Source of the DNA: Gemmatimonadaceae bacterium
GTDB lineage: Bacteria; Gemmatimonadota; Gemmatimonadetes; Gemmatimonadales; Gemmatimonadaceae
Direction: 5' to 3'
NCBI GenBank assembly: GCA_019694735.1
Contig: JAIBBJ010000148.1
Location: 1 to 57,232, forward strand
Length of the DNA: 57,232 nucleotides
Below are positions 861-32,067 of the stretch, piece after piece (position 1 is the stretch's first letter; each line of letters starts with the position of its first letter). The notes beneath the pieces are model-generated. The model was given only the letters and a program-made list of their open reading frames with translations. It was not told where the DNA came from and ran no database searches. The translations under genes and the position numbers were made by a program.

Positions 861-886
861 GGCATAACGACGCTTGCTGCCGACGA
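861..886 (+). other. Left half of an integron attC-like site
   Basis: The bases starting GGCATAACGACGCTTGCTGC match the left arm of the two complete sites at 14798 and 31973 almost base for base. The R'' box is GCATAAC at 862-868. The match fades after about 886, and no right arm (GCAGCAGAAGC...GTTATGC) follows; sequence leading into an IS3-family remnant takes its place. I read it as a truncated site. Confidence 0.7.
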
Positions 887-10887: not shown

Positions 10888-10935
10888 CTTGGCACCATCA
10901 TTATTGACGTCGTCGAGCGCGAGCCGAGCGCCGTC

Positions 10936-11373: not shown

Positions 11374-12444
11374 GTGGACGTTGACGCGTCTGCCAGCACG
11401 CGCAGCTCGCACATCGGCGGCGGTTGGGTTGGGCTGCTCGGCACTGTGCTCATCGGCCTCTTCCTCCGCTGGTATCTCGCGGGCGTCAGTCTGTCCCTTC
11501 CTACGGGAACGACCGTCGCACATCTCCGGCACGCCCACTCGCACCTCGGCTACTACGCGGTGCTCGTGCCGCTTGTCTGGCTCGCGTGGGAGTCCGGCAG
11601 CGGGCGACGGGTTCTCCGACGTTGGGAACGGTGGCTGTATGGCACTGCCACGATCGTGGCGACCATCGGCTTTGTCCGAGCGGGCTACGGAGTGCTCGGC
11701 ATTGCCGGATCCACCATCGTCGGCACCGTCTGGATGGTGGCGGGCTGGCGCATCGCGCGGCACACGCGGGAAGCCGACCACCCACTGGTCGTCGTGTTCC
11801 CCGGCACGTTGCTGGCGCTCGCGTGCATCCCACTGATTGCCGGATCGCTGCGCACCGATCCGGCATTCGCGGCGGCCGCGGTCCAAAGCTTTCTCACGCT
11901 GATGCTGTTCTTGGTCGTGGCGCCCGGCGGGCTCGCGGCGCTCGGGGTGCGGCAGCGCTGGACGTGGGGCTCGCTCGTGACTGGCGCGTTGGCGGCACTG
12001 GCGCTCGGACTGTGGTCCAGTACTGCGTCGCGCATTGGGCTCGCGCTTCACGCAATCTTCTGGCTCGACGCGGCACGCAGGATGGCGGCACCGGTGTTCG
12101 CCCTGCCGTGGTGGGCCGCGGGACTTGGATTGCTCGCCGTCGCGGCCGGCGCGATTCCGCTCACCCACGATGTGGCAATTGGCGCGTTGCACTTCTTGAT
12201 TCTCGGTCCACTGTTGAGCGCGCTCGCTCGCGACCGATTCACACCCGCGCTTGCGCCCAATACGTGGTGGTGGCATCACGCCGCGGTGCTCCTGCTCTGC
12301 GCGCCCTTGCTATTGCGTGGAATAACCGCGACCGGCCGGTCGGCAGGCATCGCCTCGGCGATTGGGGGCACTGCGGTCGTGGCTTGGTGGCTGGCGGTGC
12401 TCGCGCGACGTCGCGCGGTCCCGCCAGCCCCAAACTCGGCCTAG
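11374..12444 (+). CDS. Polytopic membrane protein with conserved histidines
   Basis: A 356-residue protein with about 10 hydrophobic segments. The histidine cluster [17 protein letters not shown] near residue 50 recalls heme-ligand segments, and further histidines lie in [26 protein letters not shown] and [10 protein letters not shown] do not recognise a precise family; an oxidase-like or NO-related membrane protein is plausible because nirK is next door. The start is GTG with no spacer from the gene before it. Its end overlaps the end of nirK by four bases, on opposite strands. Confidence 0.55.
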
Positions 12445-13886
12445 TGTGCGTCCATATTCACGCGCCGCCCGCCAGCAGCACGAACCGTTTTGACCTGGTC
12501 GGGCGTGACACGCGTGCCGTTATTGCCCCACTGGCTATAGACGTAGGTCAGGACGTTGGCGACGTCTTCGTCACCGAGTGCCAGTGCTGGCATCAGGCTG
12601 TTGTACTGCGCACCATTGACCGTCACGGGGCCGGAGAGGCCGTGCAGCACCACACCGATGGCGCGCTTCACATCTGCATTCAGGTAGTCTGAGGCGGCGA
12701 GCGGCGGGAACGCCCCAGCCAGACCGGTGCCGGCTGGTTGATGGCAGGCGGCGCAATTCTGCGCGTAGACGCGCTCACCCATTGTGATCTGTTCCGCGCG
12801 GTTTCGTGCAGCGGCTGGCGCGGGCGAGTCGCTCGTCGGCATCCGTTGCATCGCACCACCCTCGGGCTGGTAGATGCCCTCGTACTGCCGGCCGGAGTAC
12901 ACGCCGCTGTCTGGCGTACCGCCCACCGTCAGCGTGCCGATGGCGCCCTTGTTGAAGGCGCGGAAGATGGAGTGGTCCACCAGGATGTAATTGCCCGTGG
13001 TCTCAAGCTTGAACTCCACGATGGCCGCTCCGCCCGCTGGAATCAGGGTGGTCTGCACATTCTCGTTGATGCTCTTGGTGCCTCCTTCCGTGTACACGCG
13101 ATCGAAGATTTCTCCGATCACGTGGAAGCTTGAGACGAGGTTCGGCCCACCATTTCCGACAAAGAGTCGCACGGTCTCCCCAACCTCGGCCGTGAGCGCC
13201 TTTTCGCCCATAAGGGCGCCGGCAGACCCATTGAACACAACGTAGGCGGGGTCCTCGTCGATGGCGCGTTGCATATCGAAGGGTTGGTGGCCCGTGACGC
13301 CGAAGTCCCCGCGTGTGTAGAACTCGCCTTGCTGCACGTAGTACTCGCGATCCACCGCAGGAAGCCCGCCCTTCGGCTCCACGAGGATGAGCCCATACAT
13401 ACCGTTCGCGATGTGCATACCCACCGGCGACGTCGCACAATGGTACACATACAACCCGGGATTCAGCGCCTCGAAGGTAAACGTCGCCGTCTGGCCGGGG
13501 ATCACCAGCGATGCCGATGCACCACCGCCGGGCCCGGTCACGGCGTGCAGGTCGATGTTGTGCGGATTCCTGCTGGAAGGATGATTGGCGAGGTGGAACT
13601 CCACGACGTCACCCTGCCGCACACGGATGAATGAACCCGGTACTGTCCCACCGAAGGTCCAGAACGTGTAGTCCACGCCGTCGGCAAGCCGAGACGTCTG
13701 CTCGTGTGCCTCGAGATTGACGATTACCTTGGTGGGATACTGTCGCGTGATCGGCGGCGGTACCTCAGGCGGCGAGGTGAGCACTGCCGTCTCCTCTCCG
13801 CGGAGTCGTTCGCCGCCACAGGCCGAGACCAAGGTGAGGAAGGTCAGAGCCAGTAACCGGCGCGCTTCGTGAGGAGCGTGGAGCAC
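12441..13886 (-). CDS. nirK: Copper-containing nitrite reductase fused to cytochrome c, lipoprotein
   Basis: A 481-residue protein that reduces nitrite to NO outside the cytoplasmic membrane. A lipobox (LTLVSACG) ends the signal peptide. Two cupredoxin domains follow. The type 1 copper ligands are His of PHNIDLH, Cys of YHCATSP, then His and Met of [11 protein letters not shown]. The type 2 site has the second His of HNIDLH, His of YHC and His of LVDHSIF; catalytic Asp is in HNIDLH and His in [11 protein letters not shown]. Residues about 375-470 are a cytochrome c domain with CAACH and a later Met in SLMPALAL as likely axial ligand. The GTG start has AGAGG 6 bases upstream. Confidence 0.95.
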
Positions 13887-13971: not shown

Positions 13972-14052
13972 ATGAAGACATCACCGCGTGGCTCAATTCC
14001 TTTCAGGTGTGGGGACTTTACCGCAGTACTAATAGGAATGCGAGCGGTATAA
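13972..14052 (+). CDS. Possible 26-residue ORF ending inside the attC site
   Basis: ATG 13972 opens a frame (MKTSPRGSIPFRCGDFTAVL, then IGMRAV) whose TAA falls inside the R'' box of the attC-like site. That stop position is usual for cassette genes. There is only a weak ribosome-binding site and no similarity I recognise. It may be the tail end of a lost cassette gene. The rest of 13887-14046 shows the nirK leader and nothing else recognisable. Confidence 0.25.
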   Translation: MKTSPRGSIPFRCGDFTAVLIGMRAV

Positions 14053-14181
14053 CGAAGCTTGCTGCCGACGAGCGCAGGTGCGGTAGCGGTTGTGGGGCCA
14101 CTGCCCCACTATGTGGAAGGACTGCAGTGGCCCCACAACCGCATTTTATGGGAGCGCTCGCAGCAGAAGCAAACGTTATCC
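14047..14181 (+). other. Integron attC-like recombination site, site 1
   Basis: R'' is GTATAAC (14047-14053) and R' is GTTATCC (14175-14181). The arms carry GCTTGCTGC and GCAGCAGAAGC. Between them lies a perfect 19-base inverted repeat (GCGGTTGTGGGGCCACTGC at 14086-14104, its complement at 14124-14142), so the single strand folds into a long hairpin. The overall plan is shared with the sites at 14798 and 31973, while the inner stem has a different sequence. Confidence 0.8.
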
Positions 14182-14197
14182 GGAGTGAGACCCCTCG

Positions 14198-14803
14198 GTG
14201 AGTAACGAACATCTCGGAAGGCGCGCGCTGACGACGTTGCTCGCGCTGAACGGCACGATGTTCGTCGTCGAACTCGTCAGCGGCTGGCGAGCGGAGTCCA
14301 TGGGTCTCATCGCGGACGGCCTCGACATGGGCGCCGATGCGGCCGTCTACCTGCTCGCCCTGCTCGCCATCGGTGCCGCCGAGTCGCGCAAGCTGCGGGC
14401 CGCACGGTTCGCCGGCCGCGTGCAGCTCGCCTTGGCAGTCCTCGCCATGCTGGACCTTGCCCGGCGCGCCGTCATGGGCAGCACACCCGAGCCACCGACA
14501 ATGGTCGTCGTGTCGCTCGCCGCCCTCGCCGTAAACGTGTGGTGCCTCGTCCTCCTCCGCCGCCATCGGCACGGGGAGGTCCATCTCGAGGCCGCCTGGA
14601 TCTTCTCCGCCACCGACGTGCAGGCGAACCTCGGCGTCCTGCTGGCGGGCGCGCTCGTGGCCGCGTTCGACAGCGCGATTCCCGATCTCGTCGTCGGGCT
14701 GATCGTGTGCGGGCTCGTCCTCCGGGGCGCGATTCGCATCGGGCGGCGGGTCCGCGCCGCGGAGTTGGCCGCCGGCGCCGCGACATACGTGCGCCCCGGA
14801 TAA
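14198..14803 (+). CDS. Cation-diffusion-facilitator-like membrane protein, in a gene cassette
   Basis: A 201-residue protein with six hydrophobic segments. It starts LNGTMFVVELVSGWRAESMG and LIADGLDMGADAAVYLLAL, the start of CDF metal exporters, where the metal-site pattern (HxxxD in helix 2, HxxxD in helix 5) is here D-x-x-x-D (DGLDMGAD) and SATDVQAN. It lacks the cytoplasmic C-terminal domain. GTG 14198 lies 16 bases after attC site 1, and the TAA lies inside the R'' box of site 2, so the gene fills the cassette exactly. The substrate is unknown; divalent metal is likely. Confidence 0.75.
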   Translation: MSNEHLGRRALTTLLALNGTMFVVELVSGWRAESMGLIADGLDMGADAAVYLLALLAIGAAESRKLRAARFAGRVQLALAVLAMLDLARRAVMGSTPEPPTMVVVSLAALAVNVWCLVLLRRHRHGEVHLEAAWIFSATDVQANLGVLLAGALVAAFDSAIPDLVVGLIVCGLVLRGAIRIGRRVRAAELAAGAATYVRPG

Positions 14804-14892
14804 CGACGCTTGCTGCCGACGGCCACGCTATTGTAGCGCCTGCTGCGCAGGCGCATCTTATGGAGTGTCCGCAGCAGAAGCACACGTTATGC
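14798..14892 (+). other. Integron attC-like recombination site, site 2
   Basis: R'' is GGATAAC (14798-14804) and R' is GTTATGC (14886-14892), a 95-base site. The inner hairpin GCGCCTGC-TGC-GCAGGCGC is a perfect 8-base stem. The R'' box does not fully pair with its own R' but is the exact complement of the R' of site 1 (GTTATCC). Integron recombination between G and TT predicts this for a cassette running from 14176 to 14886. Confidence 0.85.
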
Positions 14893-15113
14893 CGATCCGA
14901 CTCGCCCCAAAGACTCGAAGTTCTTCTTGCTCCGCCGAGCGCCGGCATGCTGGAACGCGGTATCCACTCCACCATGCCGTCTACGCTGCTTCATCATCAA
15001 CAATCCCGTGAATATCGCGCGGCGCCCGCCGCCGCGTGCGCCGCGCACTTTGCTCGCTGGCGTAGCGCGCGGCTGAGCGCCACAGCCTGCGCACTCAGCC
15101 GCGGTCCTGCACT
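14893..15113. other. Intergenic stretch after attC site 2
   Basis: About 220 bases between the attC site and the end of the porin gene. I see no gene, no clear hairpin terminator and no repeat here. Confidence 0.6.
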
Positions 15114-16502
15114 TCAGAACCCCGTGACCGCCTCGAGCATGAAGCCTTTGAAGCGCCCGCCGTTCCGGATGTCCGTGCTCGCGAACCCGTCGTACGTCTG
15201 ATTCACGTACTCCGCCTTCGGCAGCAAGCTCGGTGTAATCCACCAGCCGCCACCGAAGTTCGTGCGCGTCACCTTGACGTCCGTGTTCGCGCCACCGAGG
15301 TCGCCAGTGACGCTGTTCCACCGTCCGCCGACGAACAGCTTCTCACCCGGCAGGAAGCGGTACACAAGCTCACCCATCAGCTGCGTGACGTCGCGCTCGG
15401 GTGGAGCCACTCCTGCCACCTCTTGGCCGCGTCCCGTCGCCGTCTCGTAGACGCCAAAGAACTCGAGTCCCCGGTACTTGATGAAGGGGTTGATCATGTA
15501 CGCCCGGACCGCGTCGCTGAATCCGGGGTTCAACATTCCGGACGAGGCATTCGCGGTCTCCGTCGCCACGTAGTTCTCGAGCACGAAGTAGTACCGCGAC
15601 CCGGCACGGTCTCCACTGTAGAAGGTGTTATTGATTGCACCCGTCTGCGTGCGGTACGAGCCCGAGAGGCGCACGCGCAGGTCGTTGTTCAACTGCCGAT
15701 CCACCCCGGCCTTGAACATCAATGCCGGCTCCCGGCTGTCCGGGCGCTGGATGTTCCCGCGGATCTCTCCGTTGGTCAGGGCGAGGACGCCGAACAGCCC
15801 TCCCTTCTGGACGATGGCCTCCGCCCCGACCTCGGTCGTGAAGGCATCAAGGATCAGGTTGCCGACGAACGGGTTGTACAGCGCCTGGCCGTTGTCGGTG
15901 CGGCGGAAGTGAAAGTCGCCGTAGTTGATCTCAAAGTGCCCGATCTTCAGCGTCGTGTATTTCATGATGCTGTTGAACAATGGCACGTCGATTGGGGACT
16001 CGTCGATCTGGAGGAAGCCGTCCTTCACCCACGTCTCGTTGTGGCGTCGCGCCGAGAGATAGCTGGTGAGCTGCACGCGTACCCCGGGCGCCAGCTGCGC
16101 GTGGAGATACATGTTCGCGGTCGCATTGTTGAAGCCGTTGCCGATCTCCATCAGCCGGTTGCGATTGGCGATGGCAGCGCTTCCCGCACTGCCGGGCGAC
16201 GGTGCCACGGCGGCCACAGCGACCGAGTCGGCGGAGTTCTCGTGCGACAGCGCCTGGAACTGCTGCGTAAACGCTGCGCCCCACTGCAGCGCAAAGCCGG
16301 TGTAGGCGGCTCCGGCCACCTTCGGCGTCTCGAACATATTCAGCCCTCTCTTGTCCTGCGGCCGCAGATACTGAATGACGTTCTGCGGCTGGAAGCGCGC
16401 CTGCGCGGTATCCACTGCCTGCGCGCCCGCAGTCGCCGGCACCGCGGTCGCGGCCGCGAGCGCGATGGCGCCGCTCCACGAATGAACCCTGTTGTAACGC
16501 AT
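15114..16502 (-). CDS. Outer-membrane porin-like beta-barrel protein
   Basis: A 462-residue protein starting MRYNRVHSWSGAIALAAATA with a signal peptide ending near AGA-QAVD. The body alternates polar and aromatic strands (KIGHFEINYGDFHFRRTD, ALMFKAGVDRQL, YFVLENYVA, KYRGLEFFGVYETATG) and the chain ends in phenylalanine, as outer-membrane barrels do. It follows the RND gene set at a distance of about 80 bases on the same strand, so it is likely the last gene of the copper efflux operon. The substrate is not predictable from sequence. Confidence 0.7.
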   Translation of the reverse strand: MRYNRVHSWSGAIALAAATAVPATAGAQAVDTAQARFQPQNVIQYLRPQDKRGLNMFETPKVAGAAYTGFALQWGAAFTQQFQALSHENSADSVAVAAVAPSPGSAGSAAIANRNRLMEIGNGFNNATANMYLHAQLAPGVRVQLTSYLSARRHNETWVKDGFLQIDESPIDVPLFNSIMKYTTLKIGHFEINYGDFHFRRTDNGQALYNPFVGNLILDAFTTEVGAEAIVQKGGLFGVLALTNGEIRGNIQRPDSREPALMFKAGVDRQLNNDLRVRLSGSYRTQTGAINNTFYSGDRAGSRYYFVLENYVATETANASSGMLNPGFSDAVRAYMINPFIKYRGLEFFGVYETATGRGQEVAGVAPPERDVTQLMGELVYRFLPGEKLFVGGRWNSVTGDLGGANTDVKVTRTNFGGGWWITPSLLPKAEYVNQTYDGFASTDIRNGGRFKGFMLEAVTGF

Positions 16503-16582
16503 TGTCTGCTCCGAGTTGAGGTTGCACCTGCCTGCCTGCACTTGTGTCGCACCAGTCCGTCCGTTGAATCAGGGCACAGAGC

Positions 16583-19500
16583 TCATTCTCCCTCCTGCAC
16601 GAGCAACCCGTGCGTTCCGCGAAATACGCCGCGCTCCTTCCAGAGTGAGTACACGGCTGGAATCACCAACAGCGTCAGGACCGTGCTCGACACCATCCCC
16701 CCGATCATCGGAGCCGCGATGCGACGCATCACGGTTCCGCCTGCGCCGGTACCCCACAGCAGCGGCAGGAGGCCGCCCATGATCGCTGTCACGGTCATCA
16801 GCTTTGGGCGCACGCGCTCGACCGCGCCCTCGATCACCGCGTCGTAGAGGTCGGCGAGTGTGGCCCGTCGACCCTCTGCCGTGCGCGCTGCCCACGCGTG
16901 GTCGAGGTAGATGAGCATCACCACGCCAGTCTCCGCCGCCACACCGGCGAGCGCGATGAATCCGATGGCCACCGCGACTGACCAGTTGTAGCCGAGGAGC
17001 CAGAGGAACCAGAGGCCGCCGACCAGTGCGAAGGGGAGCGAGAGCATCACGATCAGCGACTCGCCGACGTTCCCGAAGTTCAGGTAGAGGAGCAGGAAGA
17101 TCAGCGCAAGCGTCGCGGGGATCACGACCTTCATTCGTTCCTTGGCGCGCTCCATATACTCGTACTGTCCGCTCCACACCACCGAGTAGCCCGTCGGTAC
17201 GGTGACTTGCGCCGCGACAGCGCGTTGCGCCTCCGCGACGTAGCTCCCGATATCACGGTCCACGACGTCCACGTACACCCACGCCGTGGGCATCGCCCCC
17301 TCAGTCCGGACGACCATCGGCCCCGCGACCGGCGAGATGCGCGCGAGTTGACCGAGCGGTACTTGCGCTGGACCGCCGGAAGCGCCGACAGCAATGCTGC
17401 CCATTCCCGGCATCGCCCCTGCGCCCGCGGCGGCGGACGACCCGTGCGCGACCGGCACCAGCACGGCGGCCAGGCGCTCCGGCGAGTCGCGAAGTTCTTG
17501 CGGGTACCGCACCCGCACTCCGAACCGTTGGCGTCCCTCGACGGTCTGTGTAATGGTCATCCCGCCGATCGCCGTGGCAATCACCGCCTGCACGTCACCG
17601 ACGTTGAGTCCGTGTCGCGCGGCGGCCTCGCGGTCGATCTCGATGTCGAGGTAGTAGCCACTCACCGCACGCTCAGCGAACGCCGTGCGCGTCCCCGGCA
17701 CCATCCGTACGGCTTGCTCGATCTCCTTGCCGAGCCGCTCCAGTTCCCTCAAGTCAGGCCCGAACACCTTGACGCCGACCGGCGTGCGAATCCCGGTCGC
17801 GAGCATATCGTTGCGCCCCTTGATGGGCATCGTCCACGCGTTCGTCACGCCCGGCAAACGCACCGCCGAGTCCATCTCGGCGACGAGACGGTCGTAGGTC
17901 ATTCCCTCGCGCCACTGGTCGCGAGGCCGCAGAGAGATGGTGGTCTCGATCATATCCAGGCCCGCAGGGTCGGTCGCCGTGTTGGCGCGTCCGGCCTTGC
18001 CCCACACGTGCTCGACCTCGGGGAAGCCACGGAGAATCCCATCCTGCAGCCGGAGCAGCTCGCGCGCCCTCGCAACACTCACGCCGGGCAAGGTCGTCGG
18101 CATATACAGGATGGTGCCCTCCTCGAGCGTCGGCATGAACTCGCTGCCGATGCGTGCCCAGGGGATCCACGTCAGGATCACGGTCGCCGCAGACGCCACG
18201 ACGACAGGCCAGCGATGCCGCAGGACGAACGTGATCAACGGATGATAGGCCCGCATCAGCCAACGGTTGACCGGGTTCGCGGCCTCACGGTAGATGCGCC
18301 CGCGGACGAACAGACCCATGGCCACCGGAACCAGCGTGACGGAGAGCAGACTCGCGGCGGCCATCGCGAACGTCTTCGTGTACGCCAGCGGCCGGAACAA
18401 GCGACCCTCCTGACCCTCCAGCGTGAACACGGGCAGGAACGACACGGTAATGATCAACAGCGAGAAGAACAGCGCGGGCCCGACCTCCTTCGCCGAGTCT
18501 ATGACCACCTGCCATCGCTCGGCACGCGTGAGGCGGCCAGTGTCCAGCCAGCGCGACTGAGCATTCGGCTCCTTTGCCAGCACCGCCCGCTCGAGATGCT
18601 TGTGCAGGTTCTCGATCATCACGATCGCGGCGTCGATCATCGCGCCGATGGCGATGGCGATGCCGCCGAGCGACATAATGTCCGCACCGACACCGACATA
18701 TCGCATCGCGATGAATGCCATGAGGATTCCCACCGGAAGCGTGATGATCGCGACGAGCGCCGACCGCGCGTGCAGCAGGAACACGATGCAGACCAGCGCG
18801 ACGACGAGACTCTCCTCGAAGAGCTTGAACCGGAGGTTGCTGATGGCGCGCTGGATGAGGTCACTGCGGTCGTAGACCGGTCGGATGACCACGCCCGCCG
18901 GAAGACCCGGCGTCAATTGCGCGATGCGCGCCTTCACGCGCTCGATGGTGGTCAGGGCATTCTCCCCGAATCGCATCACGACGATCGCACCCACGGCATC
19001 GCCACGGCCGTCGAGCTCTGCCACGCCGCGCCGAATGGCCGGCCCGACCGACACGCGCCCCACCTCGGCTACGCGGATCGGCGTGCCGCGATCGGTCGCG
19101 CCTACCACGACGTTTTCGATGTCGCGCAGCGACTTCAGGTAACCGAGTCCGCGTACCATATACTCCCGCTCCGAGAGCTCGACGACCATCGCCCCGATAT
19201 CGGCGTTCGACGCCTGGATGGCCTGCATCACGCGGGTCACCGGAATGCGGTAGGCCAACAGCTTCGCCGGGTCCAGATCCACCTGATACTGCTTCTCGTA
19301 GCCGCCGACCGTCGCAACCTCCGACACACCGGGAACCGCCGTCAGCTCGTAGCGCAGGTACCAGTCCTGGAGCGCGCGCAGTTCCGCCAGGTCGAGGCGA
19401 CCGGTCGTGTCCTCAAGGGCGTACTGGTACACCCAGCCCAGCCCCGTCGCGTCGGGTCCGAGGGCAGGCGAGACGGACGCGGGGAGACGGCCCTTCAGGC

Positions 19501-19846
19501 CGTTCAGATACTCAAGCACACGGCTGCGCGCCCAGTAGAGGTCCGTGTCGTCGTCAAAGATGATGTATACGAACGAGACCCCGAAGAACGAGTAGCCGCG
19601 GACCACCTCAGCGCCCGGGACCTTGAGCATCTCGGCGGCGATCGGATACGTGACCTGGTCCTCGACGATCTGCGGCGCCTGCTCGCTGTACTCGGTCTGA
19701 ATGATCACCTGCACGTCGCTAAGGTCCGGCAGCGCCTCCAGCGGCGTCCGCTGGAGCGCGAGGATGCCGCCCCCGACCGCGGCAATCGTCGCCAGCGCCA
19801 CGAGGAAGATGTTGCGGACCGACCACTCGATGATTCGCTTCAGCAT
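16583..19846 (-). CDS. cusA: Heavy-metal efflux RND permease, CusA/CzcA family
   Basis: A 1087-residue inner-membrane pump. It starts MLKRIIEWSVRNIFLVALAT and has EALPDLSDVQVII, QVTYPIAAEMLKVPGAEVVR, the membrane motif GGIAIAIGAMIDAAIVMIEN, EEGTILYMPTTLPG and LAGVAAETGVVMLIYLDHAW. The E-M-x-V segment and the AxxGAMIDA helix favour the heavy-metal branch. The neighbours are adaptor and outer-membrane genes in the order C-B-A. Copper or silver as substrate is inferred from the surrounding copper genes and the shared operator. Confidence 0.93.
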   Translation of the reverse strand: MLKRIIEWSVRNIFLVALATIAAVGGGILALQRTPLEALPDLSDVQVIIQTEYSEQAPQIVEDQVTYPIAAEMLKVPGAEVVRGYSFFGVSFVYIIFDDDTDLYWARSRVLEYLNGLKGRLPASVSPALGPDATGLGWVYQYALEDTTGRLDLAELRALQDWYLRYELTAVPGVSEVATVGGYEKQYQVDLDPAKLLAYRIPVTRVMQAIQASNADIGAMVVELSEREYMVRGLGYLKSLRDIENVVVGATDRGTPIRVAEVGRVSVGPAIRRGVAELDGRGDAVGAIVVMRFGENALTTIERVKARIAQLTPGLPAGVVIRPVYDRSDLIQRAISNLRFKLFEESLVVALVCIVFLLHARSALVAIITLPVGILMAFIAMRYVGVGADIMSLGGIAIAIGAMIDAAIVMIENLHKHLERAVLAKEPNAQSRWLDTGRLTRAERWQVVIDSAKEVGPALFFSLLIITVSFLPVFTLEGQEGRLFRPLAYTKTFAMAAASLLSVTLVPVAMGLFVRGRIYREAANPVNRWLMRAYHPLITFVLRHRWPVVVASAATVILTWIPWARIGSEFMPTLEEGTILYMPTTLPGVSVARARELLRLQDGILRGFPEVEHVWGKAGRANTATDPAGLDMIETTISLRPRDQWREGMTYDRLVAEMDSAVRLPGVTNAWTMPIKGRNDMLATGIRTPVGVKVFGPDLRELERLGKEIEQAVRMVPGTRTAFAERAVSGYYLDIEIDREAAARHGLNVGDVQAVIATAIGGMTITQTVEGRQRFGVRVRYPQELRDSPERLAAVLVPVAHGSSAAAGAGAMPGMGSIAVGASGGPAQVPLGQLARISPVAGPMVVRTEGAMPTAWVYVDVVDRDIGSYVAEAQRAVAAQVTVPTGYSVVWSGQYEYMERAKERMKVVIPATLALIFLLLYLNFGNVGESLIVMLSLPFALVGGLWFLWLLGYNWSVAVAIGFIALAGVAAETGVVMLIYLDHAWAARTAEGRRATLADLYDAVIEGAVERVRPKLMTVTAIMGGLLPLLWGTGAGGTVMRRIAAPMIGGMVSSTVLTLLVIPAVYSLWKERGVFRGTHGLLVQEGE

Positions 19847-19857
19847 CGTTGGCGACC

Positions 19858-21096
19858 TCAGTGGTCGTGGGTGGTCGGCGGCGCAGTCGGCGGCGGTGCT
19901 ACCTTCGGCGGCGGCGCCATTCCGGGCATCTCAGCCATTCCGCCGAGCGCTGACCCCAGGTTGGATTCGGCATCCACCAGGAAAGTCGCGGACGAGACCA
20001 CCCACTCGCCGACGGCGAGTCCGGACCGGATCTCGATGCGGTCGTCCGACGCGAGCCCGAGCACGACTTCACGCGGCTCGAGCATCCCGTCATCCAGCCG
20101 GACAAACACGATGTTCCGTCGTCCCGTGGACAACACCGCGGAACGAGGCACGAGCACCGCCGCCGCCGACGCCGTTGCCCGCAGCCGGATCGTCGCGTAC
20201 ATCCCTGGGCGCAGTTGGCGGTCCGAGTTGTCGAGCTCGACGCGCACGCGCAACGTCCGTGTCTGCGGATCCACGACGGGTTGCAGGAAAACGATGGGCC
20301 CGCTGCGCGGGCGCCCCGGGAACGCGTCGAGCTCCACCGTGACGCGCTGACCAAGCCGAACGAGTGCGAGGTCGCGCTCGAAGATCTCAGCGTCCACCCA
20401 GACGCGTCGCAGGTCCGCGATGCGCAGGAGCGGATCGCCCGCCATCACCCGCTGGCCCTCGAAGACGAGCTTCTCGACCACCACCCCGTCGTACGGGGCG
20501 CGGATCTCGAGCGTCCGGCGGCTCTCGCCGCTGGCCTCGACGCGCGCGATCTCTTCGCCGAGTAAATCCCAATTGCGCAACCGTGTCCGTGCGCCGACCA
20601 AGAGGCGCTCCGCGCCCGCACGGGTGGCACTGTCCGCATTCTGCACGTCGCGGACGAGACGACCGGCGAGCACCAACTCATCCTCTGCGCTCGCCAGCAT
20701 CGGCGAGTAGGTGGTCAGCAGGGGTTCCCCGGCGCGCACGTCGCGTCCGGTGAAGTCCACGAAGAGCCGCTCCACCCACCCATCGAACTTGAGGCTTACG
20801 GTGCGCACCCGTGTCTCGTCGTAGGTCACTTGCCCCACGCTACGCACAGCGAGCTGTAGCGCGCCTTGCTCGGCCCGCGCGTACGTCACGCCGATACGCG
20901 TGGCCTGCGCGGAGTCGAGCATCACGGGAGTTGACGTACCGCCGGCCGATGACGCGCCGTGCGCGTGGCCAGCCGCCGCCTCCGGTGCGCTCGAGTCGCG
21001 TGTCGCCCACCACGCCACGCCGCCCGCCACCGCCAGCACGAGCGTGCCCAGCGCGATGCCACGCCACCCGATGCGCGTGCCTGTCTCGTTCATCAT
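19858..21096 (-). CDS. cusB: RND efflux periplasmic adaptor, CusB family
   Basis: A 412-residue membrane-fusion protein: one N-terminal membrane segment (GIALGTLVLAVAGGVAWWAT), a histidine-bearing segment (GHAHGASSAGG), then VTYDETRVRTVSLKFDGWVERLFVDFTG and IRAPYDGVVVEKLVFEGQRV of the lipoyl/barrel parts, and a C-terminal tail ending TTHDH. It links the pump at 16583 to the outer-membrane channel at 21093. The start overlaps the stop of the channel gene (ATGA). Confidence 0.92.
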   Translation of the reverse strand: MMNETGTRIGWRGIALGTLVLAVAGGVAWWATRDSSAPEAAAGHAHGASSAGGTSTPVMLDSAQATRIGVTYARAEQGALQLAVRSVGQVTYDETRVRTVSLKFDGWVERLFVDFTGRDVRAGEPLLTTYSPMLASAEDELVLAGRLVRDVQNADSATRAGAERLLVGARTRLRNWDLLGEEIARVEASGESRRTLEIRAPYDGVVVEKLVFEGQRVMAGDPLLRIADLRRVWVDAEIFERDLALVRLGQRVTVELDAFPGRPRSGPIVFLQPVVDPQTRTLRVRVELDNSDRQLRPGMYATIRLRATASAAAVLVPRSAVLSTGRRNIVFVRLDDGMLEPREVVLGLASDDRIEIRSGLAVGEWVVSSATFLVDAESNLGSALGGMAEMPGMAPPPKVAPPPTAPPTTHDH

Positions 21097-22457
21097 CGAT
21101 CCCCCGGCGTTTCGCGTCCGCCTGCTGCGTCAAAGAGTTCACGTCCCATCAACATCTCCAGTTCTGCCAGCGCCACGCCTTCCATTGCCTCAATCGCCGC
21201 CAACTCTTGCTCATAGCGATTCACCGTGACCTGATTGTCGAGCAGTGTCATCAGGTTGACGCCGCCGACGCGATAGGAAGCGAGCGCCGCCTCTACGGCA
21301 GCACGCGCCTGCGGCAGCACCGTGCTCCGATACAGCGTTTGGAGATTTCGCGCACGCTGCCACTCGGCATACGCCGCTCCGATGCGCGCGCGGGTCTCGG
21401 CGCGCATCGCCGTGAGATCGGCCACTGCCATCGCCCGCATCGCTTCTGCCTCGGCGCGCATCGGCAGTTGGCGTTGGCGCGCGAAGATGGGGACGGAAGT
21501 CCCGAGCATCAGGCTTCCCATTCGCTCAGGGCCAGTCGCACCGGCGCGCTGGCCATACTGGAGCCCTAGCTCCACGTCAGGAATGAGCTCCCGATACGCG
21601 AGCCTGCGTGCGGCCTCCGCCGCCGCGACCTCCGCGTCACCAGCCAACAGCATCGGGCGGCCCTGCAGGGCGATGTCCTCCAGTTCGGGCTGCGTTGGCA
21701 GGGATGTGGGGAACGTCGGCAGCGCCGCCGGCGGCGTCGAGTCTCCAAGCGAACGGTCCAATAGCCCGCCGAGGCGAGCGAGCGCGACGCGCCGCATCGC
21801 CTCCATCACCGTGATCTCCTCCGTCATTCGGGCCACTTCGACCCGCGCCTTCAACACGTCAGCCTGTGGAGCCTCGCCGACGCGATACATCGCGTCGGCG
21901 ACGGCCGAGACGTTCTCCAGAAGGAGACGCGTCTCGCGAGCGATCGAGACGGCCCGCTCGACGCGATACAGCTCGTAGAACGCCGCCGCCACTGCGGCCC
22001 GCACTTCCCACCGCAGGTCGCGCGCACGGAAGGCCTCGGCCGTCGCACGCGTTCGGGCAACGGTGGCCGACAGTCCCAGTTTGCCGGCCGTGGGCAGCAT
22101 CTGCATCACCTGCAGTTGCGTCATCCCCAGGGGATCCATCTGCGCGAGTCCGGGCAACTCCCGATTCATCAAGCCGAGTTGGACGCGCGGATCGGGCGGC
22201 CGCGTCGCGGTGACGGCCTGCGCGGCAACGGCGTCCGCGCGAGCTGCCGCTGCTCGAAGTCGCGGGTTCACGCTGTCTGCCGCCGCGTAGAGCTGCGAAA
22301 GCGACAGGCTCGGAGCCTGCGGTCCGCGCGCCGCCGCGGCGCTCGCTTGGGCACGCACCGCCTCAAGGGGCGTCAGCTGCGCCAGCGCTCCCAGAATCGA
22401 GAACTGGATGAGCCTCCCAATCATCCGTCGCTGCACTGGTCTGAACCCTCGGCTCAC
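21093..22457 (-). CDS. cusC: Outer-membrane efflux channel, TolC/CusC family
   Basis: A 454-residue protein with a signal peptide (FSILGALAQLTPLEAVRAQA). It has the paired helical repeats of TolC proteins (LSLSQLYAAADSVNPRLRAAAARAD and AALASYRVGGVNLMTLLDNQ). I chose GTG 22457 because AAGGAG stands 6 bases before it; a reading to 22514 lacks such a site. It is the first gene of the efflux operon, about 105 bases behind a TTTAC-N5-GTAAA operator. Confidence 0.88.
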   Translation of the reverse strand: MSRGFRPVQRRMIGRLIQFSILGALAQLTPLEAVRAQASAAAARGPQAPSLSLSQLYAAADSVNPRLRAAAARADAVAAQAVTATRPPDPRVQLGLMNRELPGLAQMDPLGMTQLQVMQMLPTAGKLGLSATVARTRATAEAFRARDLRWEVRAAVAAAFYELYRVERAVSIARETRLLLENVSAVADAMYRVGEAPQADVLKARVEVARMTEEITVMEAMRRVALARLGGLLDRSLGDSTPPAALPTFPTSLPTQPELEDIALQGRPMLLAGDAEVAAAEAARRLAYRELIPDVELGLQYGQRAGATGPERMGSLMLGTSVPIFARQRQLPMRAEAEAMRAMAVADLTAMRAETRARIGAAYAEWQRARNLQTLYRSTVLPQARAAVEAALASYRVGGVNLMTLLDNQVTVNRYEQELAAIEAMEGVALAELEMLMGRELFDAAGGRETPGDR

Positions 22458-22561
22458 GTGTCTCTCCTTCGTGGTGGGTGGCCCTGCCCCGATGGCACGG
22501 GCACGACGGTTCACGAAGCTTCGCCGGATGCCAGTGGCCGGGCTGTCGCCGATGTCCCTAT

Positions 22562-22576
22562 TTTACGTACGGTAAA
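22562..22576. promoter_or_regulatory. CopY/BlaI-type operator before cusCBA
   Basis: TTTAC-GTACG-GTAAA, a perfect 5-5-5 inverted repeat. It lies upstream of the cusC start on the minus strand. The same arms recur at 28296 and 30554, and with one mismatch at 28358. Confidence 0.75.
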
Positions 22577-22702
22577 TTCCCACGACTACGTTTCACCCTC
22601 AGCGGCCCCGCCAACGTGGCCGCGTCGTCACACCGGACTCGGTGCGGCAATCGCGCCACAGCTGGATGCATTCGCTCGGCGTGATTGCACTGCGTCAGTG
22701 GT

Positions 22703-23437
22703 CTATTGTGCGCCCGTGCTTGGCGGGAGGGCGATGCCGAGCGCCTGGCAAAGCGTCGCGTGACAGTGCGCCACGCGCGCAACGACCTCGAGCGGATCGT
22801 CCGTGACCGTCAGGCCCGCAACGTCCTCTGGCGTGATTGTGCCGCCGGGAACCGCCGTGTCGCGCAACCACGCGACGAGCCCCAGCCAGTACTCCGCGCC
22901 GACGAGGATCACGGGGAACGATTCCAGTCGGTTCGTTCGACGGAGATTCAGCGCCTCGAACAGCTCGTCGAGCGTACCGACTCCCCCCGGCAGGAGCACG
23001 AACGCGCAACTGTGGCGCACCAGCGCGAGCTTCCGCAGGAAGAAGTAGTGGAACGGCACTCGGAGCGTGAGATGGACATTGGGCGGCTCGTCGTGCGGCA
23101 ACTCGATGGTGAGGCCAACTGACGCGGCGCCCGCGCCGCGAGCGCCGCGGTTCGCCGCTGCCATCAGCCCTGGACCACCGCCAGTGATCACCGTGAAGCC
23201 GGCGGCAGCCAGTTGCGCGGCCACCTCCTCGGCCAGTGCGCCCCAGCGCGTTTCCGCCGCCGCCTGAGCCGATCCGAAGATCGTGACGCCGTTCCGGACC
23301 TGGGCCATCGTGGTGAAGGAAGCAGCGGCCTCCGCTGCGATTCTTTGGACGCGCTGCTGGTCTTCGATGCTGTTCGCGCCGACGAGCGCGGCCACGCGCA
23401 GGTCCGCCAACACGTCGAAGGACGTCGGCATCGTCAT
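22703..23437 (-). CDS. LOG-family nucleotide 5'-monophosphate phosphoribohydrolase-like protein
   Basis: A 244-residue Rossmann-fold protein with TIFGSAQAAAETRWGALAEEVA, FTVITGGGPGLMAAANRGA and the signature LLPGGVGTLDELFEALNLRR (PGGxGTxxE). LOG proteins cleave nucleoside 5'-monophosphates at the N-glycosidic bond. It starts directly behind the copper ATPase gene, with no gap, and ends the minus-strand copper operon. Why it travels with copper genes is unclear. Confidence 0.85.
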   Translation of the reverse strand: MTMPTSFDVLADLRVAALVGANSIEDQQRVQRIAAEAAASFTTMAQVRNGVTIFGSAQAAAETRWGALAEEVAAQLAAAGFTVITGGGPGLMAAANRGARGAGAASVGLTIELPHDEPPNVHLTLRVPFHYFFLRKLALVRHSCAFVLLPGGVGTLDELFEALNLRRTNRLESFPVILVGAEYWLGLVAWLRDTAVPGGTITPEDVAGLTVTDDPLEVVARVAHCHATLCQALGIALPPSTGAQ

Positions 23438-23438
23438 A

Positions 23439-25550
23439 TCACAACCTCACGCGCCGTAGCAGCTGCGCATTGATCGCGACCACGACCGTGCTCGCCGACA
23501 TCAGGACCGCGCCGACGGCAGGCGTCAGCAGGATGCCCCACGCCGACAGTACGCCCGCCGCGAGCGGAATCGCGACGATGTTGTAGCCTGCGGCCCACCA
23601 GAGGTTCTGGATCATCTTCCGGTATGTGGCGCGCGACAGCGTCACGATGCGAGGGATGTCCCGCGGATCGGAACGCACCAACACGATGTGGCCCGCCTCG
23701 ACCGCCACGTCCGTGCCGGCGCCGATCGCGATGCCGATGTCGGCGGTGGCGAGCGCCGGCGCATCGTTGACGCCGTCGCCCACCATCGCGACCTTCTTTC
23801 CCTGCGCCTGAAGGGCCCGCATCCGAGACGCCTTATCCTCCGGGAGCACTCGGGCGAATACCGTGTCGATGCCGAGGTCCGCGGCCACCGCCTTCGCCAC
23901 GGGTTCCGCGTCGCCCGTGAGCATCGCGACCTCGATGCCTGCTGCGTGCAGCGCGTCGATGGCTGCACGACTCTCCTCCCGGATCGCATCGGCCACGACG
24001 AACACGGCGATTGCCGCCCTCTCGTGCAACAGGTAGATGGCCGCCTGCCCCCGCGCCGCAGCATGTTCCGCGACGCTGCGGAGCGATTCGGTCACATCGG
24101 CGGCCACCTGCTCCAGCAAGGCGGGGCCGCCGATGCGGTACGTCGCTCCGTTCACCGTCGCCTCCACGCCACGGCCTGGAATGGCCCTAAAGCCTACGAC
24201 GCCCGGCAGCGCCAGCGTGCGCTCGACGGCCGTCTTCACGATGCCGCGGGCGATCGGGTGCTCGGACTCGGTCTCGATCGCGGCCGCGATGGCCAGCGCG
24301 TCATCCGGCGCTGTCCCTTCGCGGACCCCGAGATCCACGACGCGGAACTCTCCGAGCGTGAGCGTGCCGGTCTTGTCGAAGATGACCGTATCGAGGAGCC
24401 GCGCCTCCTCCAATCCGCGACGATCACGCACGAGAAGGCCGCCGTGTACGCCGAGCGTCGTCGAGATGGCGACGACGAGCGGCACCGCTAGCCCCAGCGC
24501 GTGCGGGCAGGAGATGACCAAGACCGTCACCAGGCGCGTCATCGCGAAGTCGATCGGCGCGCCAAGCAACTGCCACGCCACGAAGGTCGCGGCTCCGGCG
24601 ACGATGGCGACGACGGTCAGGACCTGCGCGGCCCGGTCCGCGAGGTGCTGGACACGCGACTTGGATCGCTGCGCATCGGACACCAGCCGCATGATGCCCG
24701 AGAGCTTGGTCGTGTCGCCGGTGCCGGTCACCTCGATGCGCAGCGACCCCGTGCCGTTGATCGTCCCGGCGATCGCCTCTGCGCCCTCGTTCTTGGTGAC
24801 CGGACGCGACTCGCCGGTGATCATCGATTCGTTGACGTCGCTTCGTCCTTTCCGGACGATTCCGTCCGCCGGGATGTTCTCGCCCGGCCGGACGATCAGC
24901 ACGTCGCCCGAACGCAGCGCGCCGACCGCGACGTCCTCCTCGCCGCTCTCGATCACTCGATGCGCCATATCGGGAATCAGCTTCGCCAGCTCCTGCAGGG
25001 CGCCGCTGGCCTCGGAGATCGATCGCATCTCGATCCAGTGGCCCAGGAGCATGATCGTGATGAGCGTTGCCGACTCCCACCATAACGCCTCGGCCTCGAC
25101 GAACCCGAGCTCAACGACCGCCGAGAAGACGAACGCCACGGTGATGGCGAGGGAGATGAGCGTCATCATTCCCGGTAGCCGGCTGCGCAGTTCTCCCCAG
25201 GCGCCGCGGAGGAAGACCAGTCCGCCGTAGAAGAAGACGGCGGTGCCGAGCACCGCCGGTAGTCGGTGCGACCACGGAAATGAAGGCGCCGTGTAGCCGA
25301 CCAGTGACTGGATGTGTTCCGCCCACACGACGACGGGGATCGTCAGGAGCAGCGAAAGCCAGAACTTCTGGCGGAACATCGCGGGGCTGTGGCCGGCGTG
25401 GCGGTCGTGGCCGGCGTGGTGAGAGTGCTGGGCGTGTCGGGCCTCAGACTCGTGTGCGACACCTGCTGCGCGCTCAGCGCGCCCGGCAGCGATCGTTGTA
25501 TGACGGCGCGGTTCGTGCGCCGAATGTTTCCGCTCATCTGGGTGATGCAT
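23439..25550 (-). CDS. copB-ATPase: Copper-translocating P1B-type ATPase, CopB type
   Basis: A 703-residue membrane pump. A His-rich N terminus (MHHPDERKHSAHEPRRH, then HSHHAGHDRHAGHSPAMF) replaces the usual CxxC metal domains. Motifs in order are MITGES of the actuator domain, the metal-site helix VISCPHALGLAVP (CPH), the phosphorylated Asp in IFDKTGTLT, the nucleotide-binding HP in SEHPIARG and GDGVNDAPAL. The CPH motif marks the CopB/P1B-3 group, which exports copper or silver. I chose ATG 25550, with GGAGG just upstream and 14 bases behind the CopB gene. Confidence 0.93.
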   Translation of the reverse strand: MHHPDERKHSAHEPRRHTTIAAGRAERAAGVAHESEARHAQHSHHAGHDRHAGHSPAMFRQKFWLSLLLTIPVVVWAEHIQSLVGYTAPSFPWSHRLPAVLGTAVFFYGGLVFLRGAWGELRSRLPGMMTLISLAITVAFVFSAVVELGFVEAEALWWESATLITIMLLGHWIEMRSISEASGALQELAKLIPDMAHRVIESGEEDVAVGALRSGDVLIVRPGENIPADGIVRKGRSDVNESMITGESRPVTKNEGAEAIAGTINGTGSLRIEVTGTGDTTKLSGIMRLVSDAQRSKSRVQHLADRAAQVLTVVAIVAGAATFVAWQLLGAPIDFAMTRLVTVLVISCPHALGLAVPLVVAISTTLGVHGGLLVRDRRGLEEARLLDTVIFDKTGTLTLGEFRVVDLGVREGTAPDDALAIAAAIETESEHPIARGIVKTAVERTLALPGVVGFRAIPGRGVEATVNGATYRIGGPALLEQVAADVTESLRSVAEHAAARGQAAIYLLHERAAIAVFVVADAIREESRAAIDALHAAGIEVAMLTGDAEPVAKAVAADLGIDTVFARVLPEDKASRMRALQAQGKKVAMVGDGVNDAPALATADIGIAIGAGTDVAVEAGHIVLVRSDPRDIPRIVTLSRATYRKMIQNLWWAAGYNIVAIPLAAGVLSAWGILLTPAVGAVLMSASTVVVAINAQLLRRVRL

Positions 25551-25563
25551 CACTCCTCCCGCG

Positions 25564-26340
25564 CTACCTCCACAACCGTAGGCCTGCAACCAAGAGGGAG
25601 TTTCCGGCGGACTCACCAGCCAGCCGCGCCAATTCCGCACTGCGTCCGTAACCGCGCTCCCACACCACACCCACGTATGGTGCAAACTCCCGACGGATCT
25701 CGAATCGCGTCCGCAACGCGAATGACGTGCTGCTCAATCCGCGTCCGATGCCGAACGCTTCGTCGTCCTTCAGCGCCACGGTGGACTCTAGGCGCGGCTG
25801 CAGTACCACGCGCTGCGTGAGGAACAGATCGTACGAAGCCGTCAGGTCGAACGACAGGTTCCCCCCTGACGTCACGAAGAGTGACGGTTCCAGCTCGAAC
25901 CAGCCAGGCGCGAGGCCTTGGAGGCCGACCACGGCACCCGCCCGCGTCGCGTTCGCGCCTGGCGCGGTACGCAGGTCCGCGCGCGCGCCGAGCTGTAGGT
26001 CCCACCACGGGCTCAACATCCGGCCGTACAGCAGCTGATACTCGCCGTGCGTCGCGCGCTCCACCGTGGCCGCGCTTCCATCCGCCTTGAACCACAGGCG
26101 ACGGCTCGCGCCGCCGGTCCAGGCAAGCACGTCGAACAGCATCGGACGCTCGCCACCCGATGGATCGTACTCGAGCACTTCCGTCAGCACGAAGGTCTCG
26201 CGACCCCAACCCATTCCGTGCGTCCCCGCGTGCGGCACGCTGTCGCGTACCTGAGCGGACGCGGCGCGTCCCGCGCCACAGAGCGCGATCGCAAGATGAA
26301 GGGCGATGACGGCACGTTTCACCCCGCGCTCACGCGGCAT
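25564..26340 (-). CDS. copB: Outer-membrane copper resistance protein B
   Basis: A 258-residue protein with a signal peptide (VIALHLAIALCGAGRAASAQ) and the CopB core: WTGGASRRLWFKADGSA, YQLLYGRMLSPWWDLQLGARAD, GLAPGWFELEPSLFV and IRREFAPYVGVVWERGYG, ending in RLWR. CopB is an outer-membrane barrel of periplasmic copper-resistance systems. The long Met/His N-terminal repeats of Pseudomonas CopB are missing. The ATG at 26340 overlaps the end of the multicopper oxidase gene. Confidence 0.9.
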   Translation of the reverse strand: MPRERGVKRAVIALHLAIALCGAGRAASAQVRDSVPHAGTHGMGWGRETFVLTEVLEYDPSGGERPMLFDVLAWTGGASRRLWFKADGSAATVERATHGEYQLLYGRMLSPWWDLQLGARADLRTAPGANATRAGAVVGLQGLAPGWFELEPSLFVTSGGNLSFDLTASYDLFLTQRVVLQPRLESTVALKDDEAFGIGRGLSSTSFALRTRFEIRREFAPYVGVVWERGYGRSAELARLAGESAGNSLLVAGLRLWR

Positions 26341-28204
26341 CGTGATGCCCCTCGTGACCCGTTGGCGCACTCACGCGTACCTCGCGAAACATTCCCACCT
26401 CCATATGGTAGAGCACGTGGCAGTGGAACGCCCAACGGCCGGGTGCATCCGCCGTGACCAGCAACGACACGCGCTCCGCGGGCTTCACGTTGATCGTGTG
26501 GATGCGTGGACTGCGATCGCCCTGTCCGTTCTCGAGTTCCATCCACATCCCGTGGAGGTGCATCGGGTGATTCATCATCGTGTCGTTCACCATCGTGAGG
26601 CGAACGCGCTCGCCGAACGTGAGGTCGATCGGTGCCGCCCGATCGTATGGGACGCCATCGATCGCCCACGTGAAGCGTTCCATATTGCCCGTCAGGTGAA
26701 CCTCGATCTCACGAGTCGGTGCACGAAACTCGGGGTACGGGGCGACCGAGCGCAGCTGCGAGTAGAGCAGGACTCGCCGTCCGTCTTCGCCGAGGCCAAC
26801 CCCCGGTTCTGCGAGTCGACTCTTCGTGCTCACCGGGACCATCGCGTTCCCCACGCCGTGGGTGTCCGGACCGTGCGCGGTCTCGGTCGGCAGCGAACCC
26901 GGCGCACGACGCGACGACGCGAGATCCATCGCGCCCATGTCGTGACCTGCGTGTTCGTCAGTCGCGGCGGTCGATGGCACTCGGCCCGACGGCGCGCTGG
27001 GCGGCGTCTCGTGCCCCATCGACGAGTGATCCATCCCCTCCCCACCCATCGCGGAGTGGTCCATCCCCATATCCGCCATCGTCAGGAGTGGACGCTTCCG
27101 GCGTGGCGGCAAGTTGGCGACCATCCCCGGCTGCGGCGCCAGCGTCGCGGCGGTGAACCCGCTGCGATCCATCGCCTCAGCGTACACGGCGTAGGCGCGA
27201 CCGTCGGGAACCTGCACGATCACATCATAGGTCTCGGCGATGGCGATGCGAAACTCGTCGGTCTCGATCGGCTCCACTGGCTGGCCGCTGACCTGCACGA
27301 CGGTCATCGGCAACCCGGGCACGCGCACGTCGAAGTACGAGCCGGCCGCCGCATTGATGATCCGCAGCAGCACACGCTCCCCCGGCGCGAACTGCGCCAC
27401 CCACGGCGCCTCGGCGACCTGGCCGTTGAGCAAGTAGCAGTAGGTCGCGCCCGTGACGTCGGCGATGTCCGTGGGGTTCATTCGCATCCCGGCCCACATC
27501 CAGCGGTCACCGACGGTGGCACCGAGACCGTCGCGCGCCACGTCGCGGAAAAAGTCGGCGACCGTGCGACGCTGATAGTTGTACGCGTCGGGCTGCTTCT
27601 TGAGCTGAGAGAGCACGCGATACGGGTTCTCGAAGGTCCAGTCGGAGAGTACGAGGACGTGCTCGCGGTCGCAGGCGGGTCCGGAGCGCTCGGCGGGCTC
27701 AATGATCAGGGCCCCGTAATGCCCGAGCTGCTCTTGCAGGCCGGAGTGGCTGTGATACCAATACGTGCCCGCCTGATTCACCGAGAAGCGGTACTCGAAG
27801 GTCTCGCCGGGTCGAATGCCGGGAAAGCTCAGTCCGGGCACCCCATCCATTTCGGGCGGCAAAATGATGCCGTGCCAGTGGATGGACGTGTCCTCCGAGA
27901 GCGTGTTGTGCACGCGGATGACGGCTTGTTCCCCCTCGCGGAATCGGAGGATGGGGCCGGGCAGGGTGCCATTGATCGTGGTCGCGCGCGCGTTACGACC
28001 GTCCAGACGGAGAGTTGTCTCCGCGATCGTCAGATCGTACTCTCGAACGCCATTCGGCGATGGCGGAAGTGGTCCGAGGCCCGCATCGAGATTGGAAGCG
28101 TCCGGCGCCATTGCGAGCAGCCGCGGGGGCAACGCAGAGGCGGCGCCCAGCAGTGTGGTGGCACCGAGAAAGTGTCGGCGGGAAACTGTCATCGGAACGG
28201 TCAC
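26330..28204 (-). CDS. copA: Multicopper oxidase, CopA/PcoA family
   Basis: A 624-residue periplasmic oxidase exported by the Tat system (SRRHFLGATTLLGAAS). Copper sites are visible in order: SIHWHGIILP, TYWYHSHSGLQEQLG, NHPMHLHGMWME and FHCHVLYHMEVGM. A Met/His stretch near residues 375-430 (MGMDHSAMGGEGMDHSSMGH) probably binds extra copper. The start is GTG 28204; ATG 28192 in the same frame would also give a full Tat signal. It is the first gene behind the operator at 28296 and is followed by copB. Confidence 0.93.
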   Translation of the reverse strand: MTVPMTVSRRHFLGATTLLGAASALPPRLLAMAPDASNLDAGLGPLPPSPNGVREYDLTIAETTLRLDGRNARATTINGTLPGPILRFREGEQAVIRVHNTLSEDTSIHWHGIILPPEMDGVPGLSFPGIRPGETFEYRFSVNQAGTYWYHSHSGLQEQLGHYGALIIEPAERSGPACDREHVLVLSDWTFENPYRVLSQLKKQPDAYNYQRRTVADFFRDVARDGLGATVGDRWMWAGMRMNPTDIADVTGATYCYLLNGQVAEAPWVAQFAPGERVLLRIINAAAGSYFDVRVPGLPMTVVQVSGQPVEPIETDEFRIAIAETYDVIVQVPDGRAYAVYAEAMDRSGFTAATLAPQPGMVANLPPRRKRPLLTMADMGMDHSAMGGEGMDHSSMGHETPPSAPSGRVPSTAATDEHAGHDMGAMDLASSRRAPGSLPTETAHGPDTHGVGNAMVPVSTKSRLAEPGVGLGEDGRRVLLYSQLRSVAPYPEFRAPTREIEVHLTGNMERFTWAIDGVPYDRAAPIDLTFGERVRLTMVNDTMMNHPMHLHGMWMELENGQGDRSPRIHTINVKPAERVSLLVTADAPGRWAFHCHVLYHMEVGMFREVRVSAPTGHEGHHDAA

Positions 28205-28295
28205 GGGGAATCGAACATCGCTCGTGGGGTCGGGTGGTGAGCCATCGGCCCTTCGCAGAGCGACGGCACACCGCCGTCTTTAATGTAGCAGCAGT

Positions 28296-28310
28296 TTTAC
28301 GAGCAGTAAA
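28296..28310. promoter_or_regulatory. CopY/BlaI-type operator, divergent region, oxidase side
   Basis: TTTAC-GAGCA-GTAAA, perfect inverted arms, about 92 bases before the multicopper oxidase start. It probably controls the oxidase-copB-ATPase-LOG operon. Confidence 0.75.
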
Positions 28311-28357
28311 GCCGCCTGGGCTGGACATCCGCCGGGACGGGCACTTGCCGCTGGCAC

Positions 28358-28372
28358 ATTACGCAGAGTAAA
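28358..28372. promoter_or_regulatory. CopY/BlaI-type operator, divergent region, regulator side
   Basis: ATTAC-GCAGA-GTAAA, the same motif with one mismatch in the left arm, 50 bases before the gene at 28422. This unit contains the regulator itself, so the site suggests autoregulation. Confidence 0.65.
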
Positions 28373-28421
28373 CTCCCTGCGGTACTGTTCGTTCCCACCG
28401 TCGCCCCCAACCCCGCGTCCA

Positions 28422-28937: not shown

Positions 28938-28983
28938 GCATTGGCCGCTGCCCTGAGCACCTCAATCCCGGTATGTTCAAGGT

Positions 28984-30496: not shown

Positions 30497-30553
30497 TTCC
30501 GGGAGGATGGAACAACGCCCGCCCTTGCGCAGCGCGGGCCTGATCTCGTATGC

Positions 30554-30568
30554 TTTACACAGCGTAAA
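30554..30568. promoter_or_regulatory. CopY/BlaI-type operator before copCD
   Basis: TTTAC-ACAGC-GTAAA, perfect inverted arms, 25 bases before the copC start, and overlapping a TATGCT sequence (30549-30554) that could serve as a -10 box. Confidence 0.75.
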
Positions 30569-30593
30569 CGACTCACTTTCTCCCGCCCCCGCA

Positions 30594-30998: not shown

Positions 30999-31007
30999 GG
31001 CGGTCGG

Positions 31008-31955: not shown

Positions 31956-31972
31956 CGCCTCGGAAGGGGACG

Positions 31973-32067
31973 GCATAACGAAGCTTGCTGCTGTCAGCCA
32001 CGCTATTGTAGCGACCGCTACGCGGTCGCATCTTATGGAGTGTCTGCAGCAGAAGCAAACGTTATGC
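31973..32067 (+). other. Integron attC-like recombination site, site 3
   Basis: R'' is GCATAAC (31973-31979) and R' is GTTATGC (32061-32067), exact complements, 95 bases apart end to end as in site 2. The arms are GCTTGCTGC and GCAGCAGAAGC. The inner stem GCGACCGC-TAC-GCGGTCGC is perfect and differs from that of site 2 by paired changes, which supports a selected folded form. Confidence 0.85.

Follow-up and report, generated by a model that had tools for sequence, protein, structure and literature searches.

The window analysed here is a stretch of 57,232 nucleotides (contig JAIBBJ010000148.1 of assembly GCA_019694735.1), in which a CDF-type cation transporter gene lies between two attC sites, all on the plus strand. 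Site 1 (14047..14181) is about 135 nt long and belongs to the long-arm class, with the R' box GTTATCC at 14175-14181; site 2 (14798..14892) belongs to the 97-nt class, with the R'' box GGATAAC and the R' box GTTATGC. The gene (14198..14803) begins with a GTG codon 16 nt past the R' box of site 1 and ends with a TAA codon within the R'' box of site 2. It encodes a short protein of 201 amino acids that carries the domain of a cation diffusion facilitator (PF01545, the Cation_efflux membrane domain; E = 5.7e-18), lacks the usual C-terminal domain and scores 77 bits against TIGR01297, under the 82-bit cut-off of that family. Bounded by the predicted cuts between G and TT (written G/TT, with the slash marking the cut), the gene cassette comprises 711 bp (14176..14886) and is flanked at either end by an attC that has R'' and R' boxes and imperfect arms. 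A preliminary description of this locus had given the same positions and bases for both sites, the gene and the 711-bp segment, all of which are correct in the sequence, as are its positions for the stop and start codons. It had also noted that the R'' box of site 2 pairs incompletely with its own R' box and is the exact complement of that of site 1, which was confirmed, and had argued that a free circle of the cassette would carry a perfectly matched site. Indeed, the circle form of the site folds at -31.4 kcal/mol with fully paired R boxes, compared with -27.4 kcal/mol for the linear site 2. The scope of that description ended at position 14892, so that the neighbouring 17.2-kb unit was missed; it was also without a third complete site at 31973-32067 and a half site at 862-885.

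The identity of the sites was assessed using a two-arm profile trained on 90 attC sites, all from other genomes, with a lowest training score of 68 bits. The three complete sites of the window score 78-84 bits (83 bits for site 1), in the range of the attC sites of relatives and far over the background; the profile found no further match in the window, and 40 shuffled sequences gave no match at all. Three copies of the conserved right arm, each in plus orientation, are present in the window, where shuffling predicts 0.04, and the rest of the 3.5-Mb assembly has no copy. The bottom strands of the window sites, including that of site 1, fold to the canonical hairpin, and unpaired bases are present in the hairpin of the CDF unit. 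Rfam gave no useful match to the window sites. Neither the contig nor the assembly of the window, which is incomplete and could hide one, gave an integron integrase (TIGR02249) over the cut-off, and no attI-like motif was found in the window. Two tyrosine recombinases were considered as integron integrases and rejected: that on contig C93 sits among housekeeping genes, is below the cut-off and was read as XerD, and that on contig C191 is XerC/D-like and also below the integron-integrase cut-off. An intI gene and an attI site adjoining the array, as in a complete integron, were thus not found in this assembly, and sites 1 and 2 form a cluster of at least two attC sites less than 4 kb apart with no integrase (CALIN). 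Judged by these sites, the window holds part of an integron cassette array, a remnant that, on the evidence of this assembly, lacks an integrase. Arrays of relatives from the same genus, with 118 sites counted in genome G058 and 93 in G100, were used for comparison. An integron integrase over the curated cut-off is present in 13 of the 16 relatives screened, and in G100 and G058 the order is integrase, attI-like site (...AATCCACG/TTA) and cassette array, in one direction throughout.

Integron integrases cut at G/TT, so that the six bases past the cut come from the next cassette and each R'' box pairs with the R' box of the preceding site on its left; this is established integron biology. Of 77 adjacent pairs in the arrays of the genus, drawn from a few related genomes, 73 have an R'' box whose four outer bases match the preceding R' box, whereas only 12 of 93 sites match their own R' box in these bases. 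Permutation of the pairs gave a mean of 5.4 matches and a maximum of 15 in 10,000 permutations. The two-arm profile is genus-specific and too insensitive for the rule to be followed in G010 and G036, both outside the genus. In an initial count of gaps, several large ones lacked matched ends; counting with the arms scored separately, by which sites split by insertion sequences (IS) become readable, resolved most of them, and at least one unmatched large gap proved to be an attC split by an IS110-family element. With separate arms, R' and R'' match in 155 of 158 gaps shorter than 1 kb and in all six gaps longer than 6 kb (four distinct cassettes, two of which occur in two genomes each), where the chance of an end match is approximately 0.07 per pair. 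End matching is a general rule of the arrays of this genus.

Copies of the CDF gene were found in G058 (four), G001 (two) and G096 (one), and the related loci come from Gemmatimonadetes/Gemmatimonadaceae metagenome assemblies, in line with the earlier suggestion of a Gemmatimonadota genome. In alignments with all four G058 copies, homology extends from the predicted cut, G/TTATCCGGAGTGAGA, to the R'' box, and each copy has different sequence outside the cassette. One of them is the first cassette directly behind an attI-like site (L087, about 4300-4340; G058:C1:2537.3 kb), with a peptidase-like gene upstream and no integrase gene beside it. The four copies (L085, L086 and L087) are closed by three different attC sequences, which indicates that gene and attC sometimes part company. 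At least one G001 copy lies in an array, and the G096 copy has a decayed attC (L041). Chromosomal copies without attC (L040 and the second G001 copy, L089, which adjoins cusA) were weighed as candidate sources of the cassette, with transfer in either direction conceivable. The attC scores, the several contexts and the edges at the predicted cut support the claim of the preliminary description that the 711-bp segment is a real cassette, and an ordinary one, for which recombination by an integrase is predicted. Its biology is textbook integron biology and is not new, although the array offers a clean natural example of the last attC bases belonging to the next cassette.

Site 1 closes a cassette that carries nirK (12441..13886, minus strand), a copper nitrite reductase/cytochrome c fusion (TIGR02376, 349 bits) with 96.5% identity to an array cassette of G001:C3, and is itself 89.7% identical to the attC behind the nirK cassette of G001. 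This cassette (window 10345-13967, compared with L096 6403-9377) is a 91-96% match to the 3-kb G001 cassette, relative to which it has approximately 960 extra bases (11464-12424) and has lost its left end. Near the start of the window, a half attC (862..885, plus strand) that consists of R'' and L'' only closes a cassette with a DUF429 gene (145-849) as cargo and is cut off by an insertion remnant; homologues of this unit are present in G251 and G136. Past site 3, the stretch 32087-33600 holds the start of a small membrane-protein cassette followed by an IS481-like transposase gene, and a near copy of it (95%) is present in G100.

Between sites 2 and 3 lies a unit of 17,175 bp (14887..32061) with the 13 genes of a copper-resistance island on both strands. 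The minus strand encodes a porin, cusA, cusB, cusC, a LOG-like protein, the copper P-type ATPase copA, copB and a copper-resistance multicopper oxidase, and the plus strand encodes a SnoaL-like protein, blaI, an M56 peptidase, copC and copD. Site 3 (31973..32067, plus strand, 97-nt class) follows approximately 17 nt past the copD stop codon and is the single attC of the unit: neither the profile nor the separate arms revealed an attC-like arm inside the 17 kb. No transposase or recombinase family was recognized among the 13 genes. The closing R'' box, GGCATAAC, complements the R' box at the left end, GTTATGCC. By the end rule, the whole island would be one giant cassette with a single 97-nt attC after copD, and the junction of its circle is predicted to read ...ACG/TTATGCCGATCC.

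A BLAST comparison of the window with the arrays of relatives gave one long match, from 14858 to 32066, to G058:C1 (17.2 kb, 98.4%), which stops at the attC sites at either end. The left attC differs, with 97 nt in the window and 138 nt in G058, and both continue as ...ACG/TTATGCCGATCCGAC; the body of the right attC is common to the two up to ...AAACG/TTATG, and the sequences diverge beyond the G/TT cut. The unit in G058 has other neighbours, with a different flanking attC and a different downstream cassette, and the succession of matched ends there includes its 17 kb without a break. The two copies are approximately 99.9% identical over 16.65-32.06 kb of the window (15.4 kb), whereas the first 1.7 kb is only 75-93% identical. 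Since core regions of the two genomes are 75-77% identical and pyrG is 86% identical, the 15.4-kb DNA itself must have moved recently, and recent transfer of copper-unit DNA between species is well supported by these identities; the divergent first 1.7 kb indicates that homologous recombination also acted there. Chromosomal homologues of the copper island without attC occur in G001, G250 and G100, and plasmid records gave only short 72% matches.

Four distinct giant cassettes of 6.7-17.2 kb with matched ends were found in total, several of which carry Cus or Czc efflux operons. In addition to the copper cassette of approximately 17.1-17.2 kb in G058 and the window, these are a 9.8-kb cassette with czc efflux genes and a P-type ATPase (G100 and G058), a 10.7-kb cassette with a second CusA/CzcA-type efflux operon and a P-type ATPase (G100) and a 6.7-kb cassette (L129 4713-11441; G100:C1:2375.2-2381.9 kb) with an IS, a HATPase-domain protein and a 733-residue protein that fits no known family. 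Between G100 and G058, the 9.8-kb czc cassette shares 99.3% identity, compared with approximately 80% for core regions. Its identity starts at G/TTATGCC and ends at ACG/TTA, which are the cut sites, and its predicted circle junction is ...ACG/TTATGCCGACCG. No attC-like arms were found inside the 9.8- and 10.7-kb units of G100, and only weak single-arm scores inside the 6.7-kb unit. Each of the four giants is closed by an attC of the 97-nt class, to which 43 of 156 matched sites belong, a coincidence that is not pressed given the small number. A further block of 6.8 kb with copper genes and an attC (L174 8964-15751 in G132:C26; L122 4834-11622 in G100) is 98.1% identical between G100 and G132, which belongs to a different genus, and diverges at the attC cut. 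At L139, about 8598-10062 (G058:C1:2561098-2562562), a 1.46-kb IS110-family element (Transposase_20, DEDD_Tnp_IS110) splits the attC that closes this 9.8-kb czc cassette. The element has many further copies in the G058 and G100 arrays, and automatic array calls break at such a split. IS elements that target attC are known, the IS1111-attC group being cited in PMC11187229.

Taken together, these data suggest, with a probability of about 0.85, that the window carries an integrase-less array in which the CDF unit is an ordinary cassette and the 17.2-kb copper island is one giant cassette, and that the genus trades such giants. According to this proposal, an integron integrase, acting from elsewhere or in an ancestor, would recombine the folded bottom strand of attC at G/TT; the six bases past each cut would be those of the next cassette, so that each R'' box would pair with the R' box to its left. 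The genus would then possess a set of island-size cassettes (6.7-17.2 kb) that pass between species, and we infer that the integrase excised and inserted the giants as whole circles.

Several other explanations of these observations were considered. That the sites are unrelated repeats, such as REP-like elements, which merely resemble integron sites is barely credible: it accords with the lack of an integrase over the cut-off in the assembly, but not with the integrases of 13 of the 16 relatives, with matching arrays that begin right behind an integrase and an attI-like site in G100 and G058, or with the 73 matched ends among 77 pairs. An assembly or binning artefact, in which a copper block of another species was joined to this contig, might be suspected in an assembly of 226 contigs. 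However, the first 1.7 kb of the unit departs from the G058 copy, the flanks differ, the flank at 33-57 kb is only approximately 73-81% identical to members of the genus, and the second shared giant cassette sits in genomes of one and three contigs, all of which makes a chimera highly improbable.

The remaining alternatives concern how the island came to lie between attC sites. It may have arisen in place, by chromosomal insertion or by the loss of internal attC sites, with only the small neighbours moving and mimicking cassette edges. Neighbours do turn over, and if the block itself stayed where it was, their exchange would likewise leave sharp edges; furthermore, the unit is more divergent, and older, in its left 1.7 kb than elsewhere, and chromosomal homologues without attC exist. 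A stationary origin nevertheless seems distinctly unlikely, given 15.4 kb of 99.9% identity between species with such divergent cores and a 9.8-kb czc unit that two species share almost unchanged between its cuts. Movement of the island by natural uptake and homologous recombination, by a transposon or by an integrative element, rather than by an integrase, would fit an identity tract that starts inside the unit, away from the left cut, and the abundance of IS elements in these arrays. This route is also considered unlikely, because the 13 genes gave no match to a transposase or recombinase family and because the czc unit has both its ends at the attC cut, as two copper blocks have their downstream ends. 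Neighbour turnover or transfer by homologous recombination could still yield part of the giant-cassette pattern.

Under the giant-cassette reading, what appears to be new is the combination of size and content, in that whole metal-resistance loci would behave as single cassettes; that they confer metal resistance is presumed from their genes. Whether integrases mobilize intact metal-resistance cassettes of at least 7-17 kb between species as single circles, as a hidden layer of cargo, is a broader proposition to which we would give even odds. Integrons are viewed as elements that collect single small genes. If efflux-operon cassettes of 7-17 kb move likewise, whole multi-gene traits would be transferable by integrons in one step, and other genomes could be re-screened with a simple end-matching test. 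Gemmatimonadota are among the integron-bearing phyla, and cassettes usually contain one open reading frame, with two or none also observed (PMC8618304). One cassette finder has a length limit of 1860 bp, the longest cassette in its database (PMC3087341). Surveys group attC sites into clusters only when they are less than 4 kb apart (PMC9668308), and such surveys would miss giant cassettes. The open-access literature yielded no description of cassettes of comparable size, most subscription journals being outside this search.

In comparison with known systems, the CDF cassette shows no difference from the classical integron cassette with its attC site (59-base element): it shares the R''-L''-L'-R' layout, the bottom-strand hairpin, the G/TT cut, the bases of the next cassette in R' and the single gene that ends in R''. 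Its copper neighbour differs with its 17.2 kb and 13 genes. The window resembles a CALIN in its two attC sites 0.6 kb apart and in having no integrase gene over the cut-off; however, its array extends beyond a 17-kb gap, at which the usual spacing limit of less than 4 kb would end the cluster. An integrase oriented in the direction of the cassettes is known from Treponema (PMC3607928), and in G100 and G058 intI likewise reads towards attI and the cassettes, although the phylum is another and the cassettes here include metal-efflux operons. Finally, the gene content and order are those of CusCBA/CopABCD and Czc resistance loci, as in the chromosomal copper islands of relatives, whereas here the loci are closed by attC and lie inside a cassette array.
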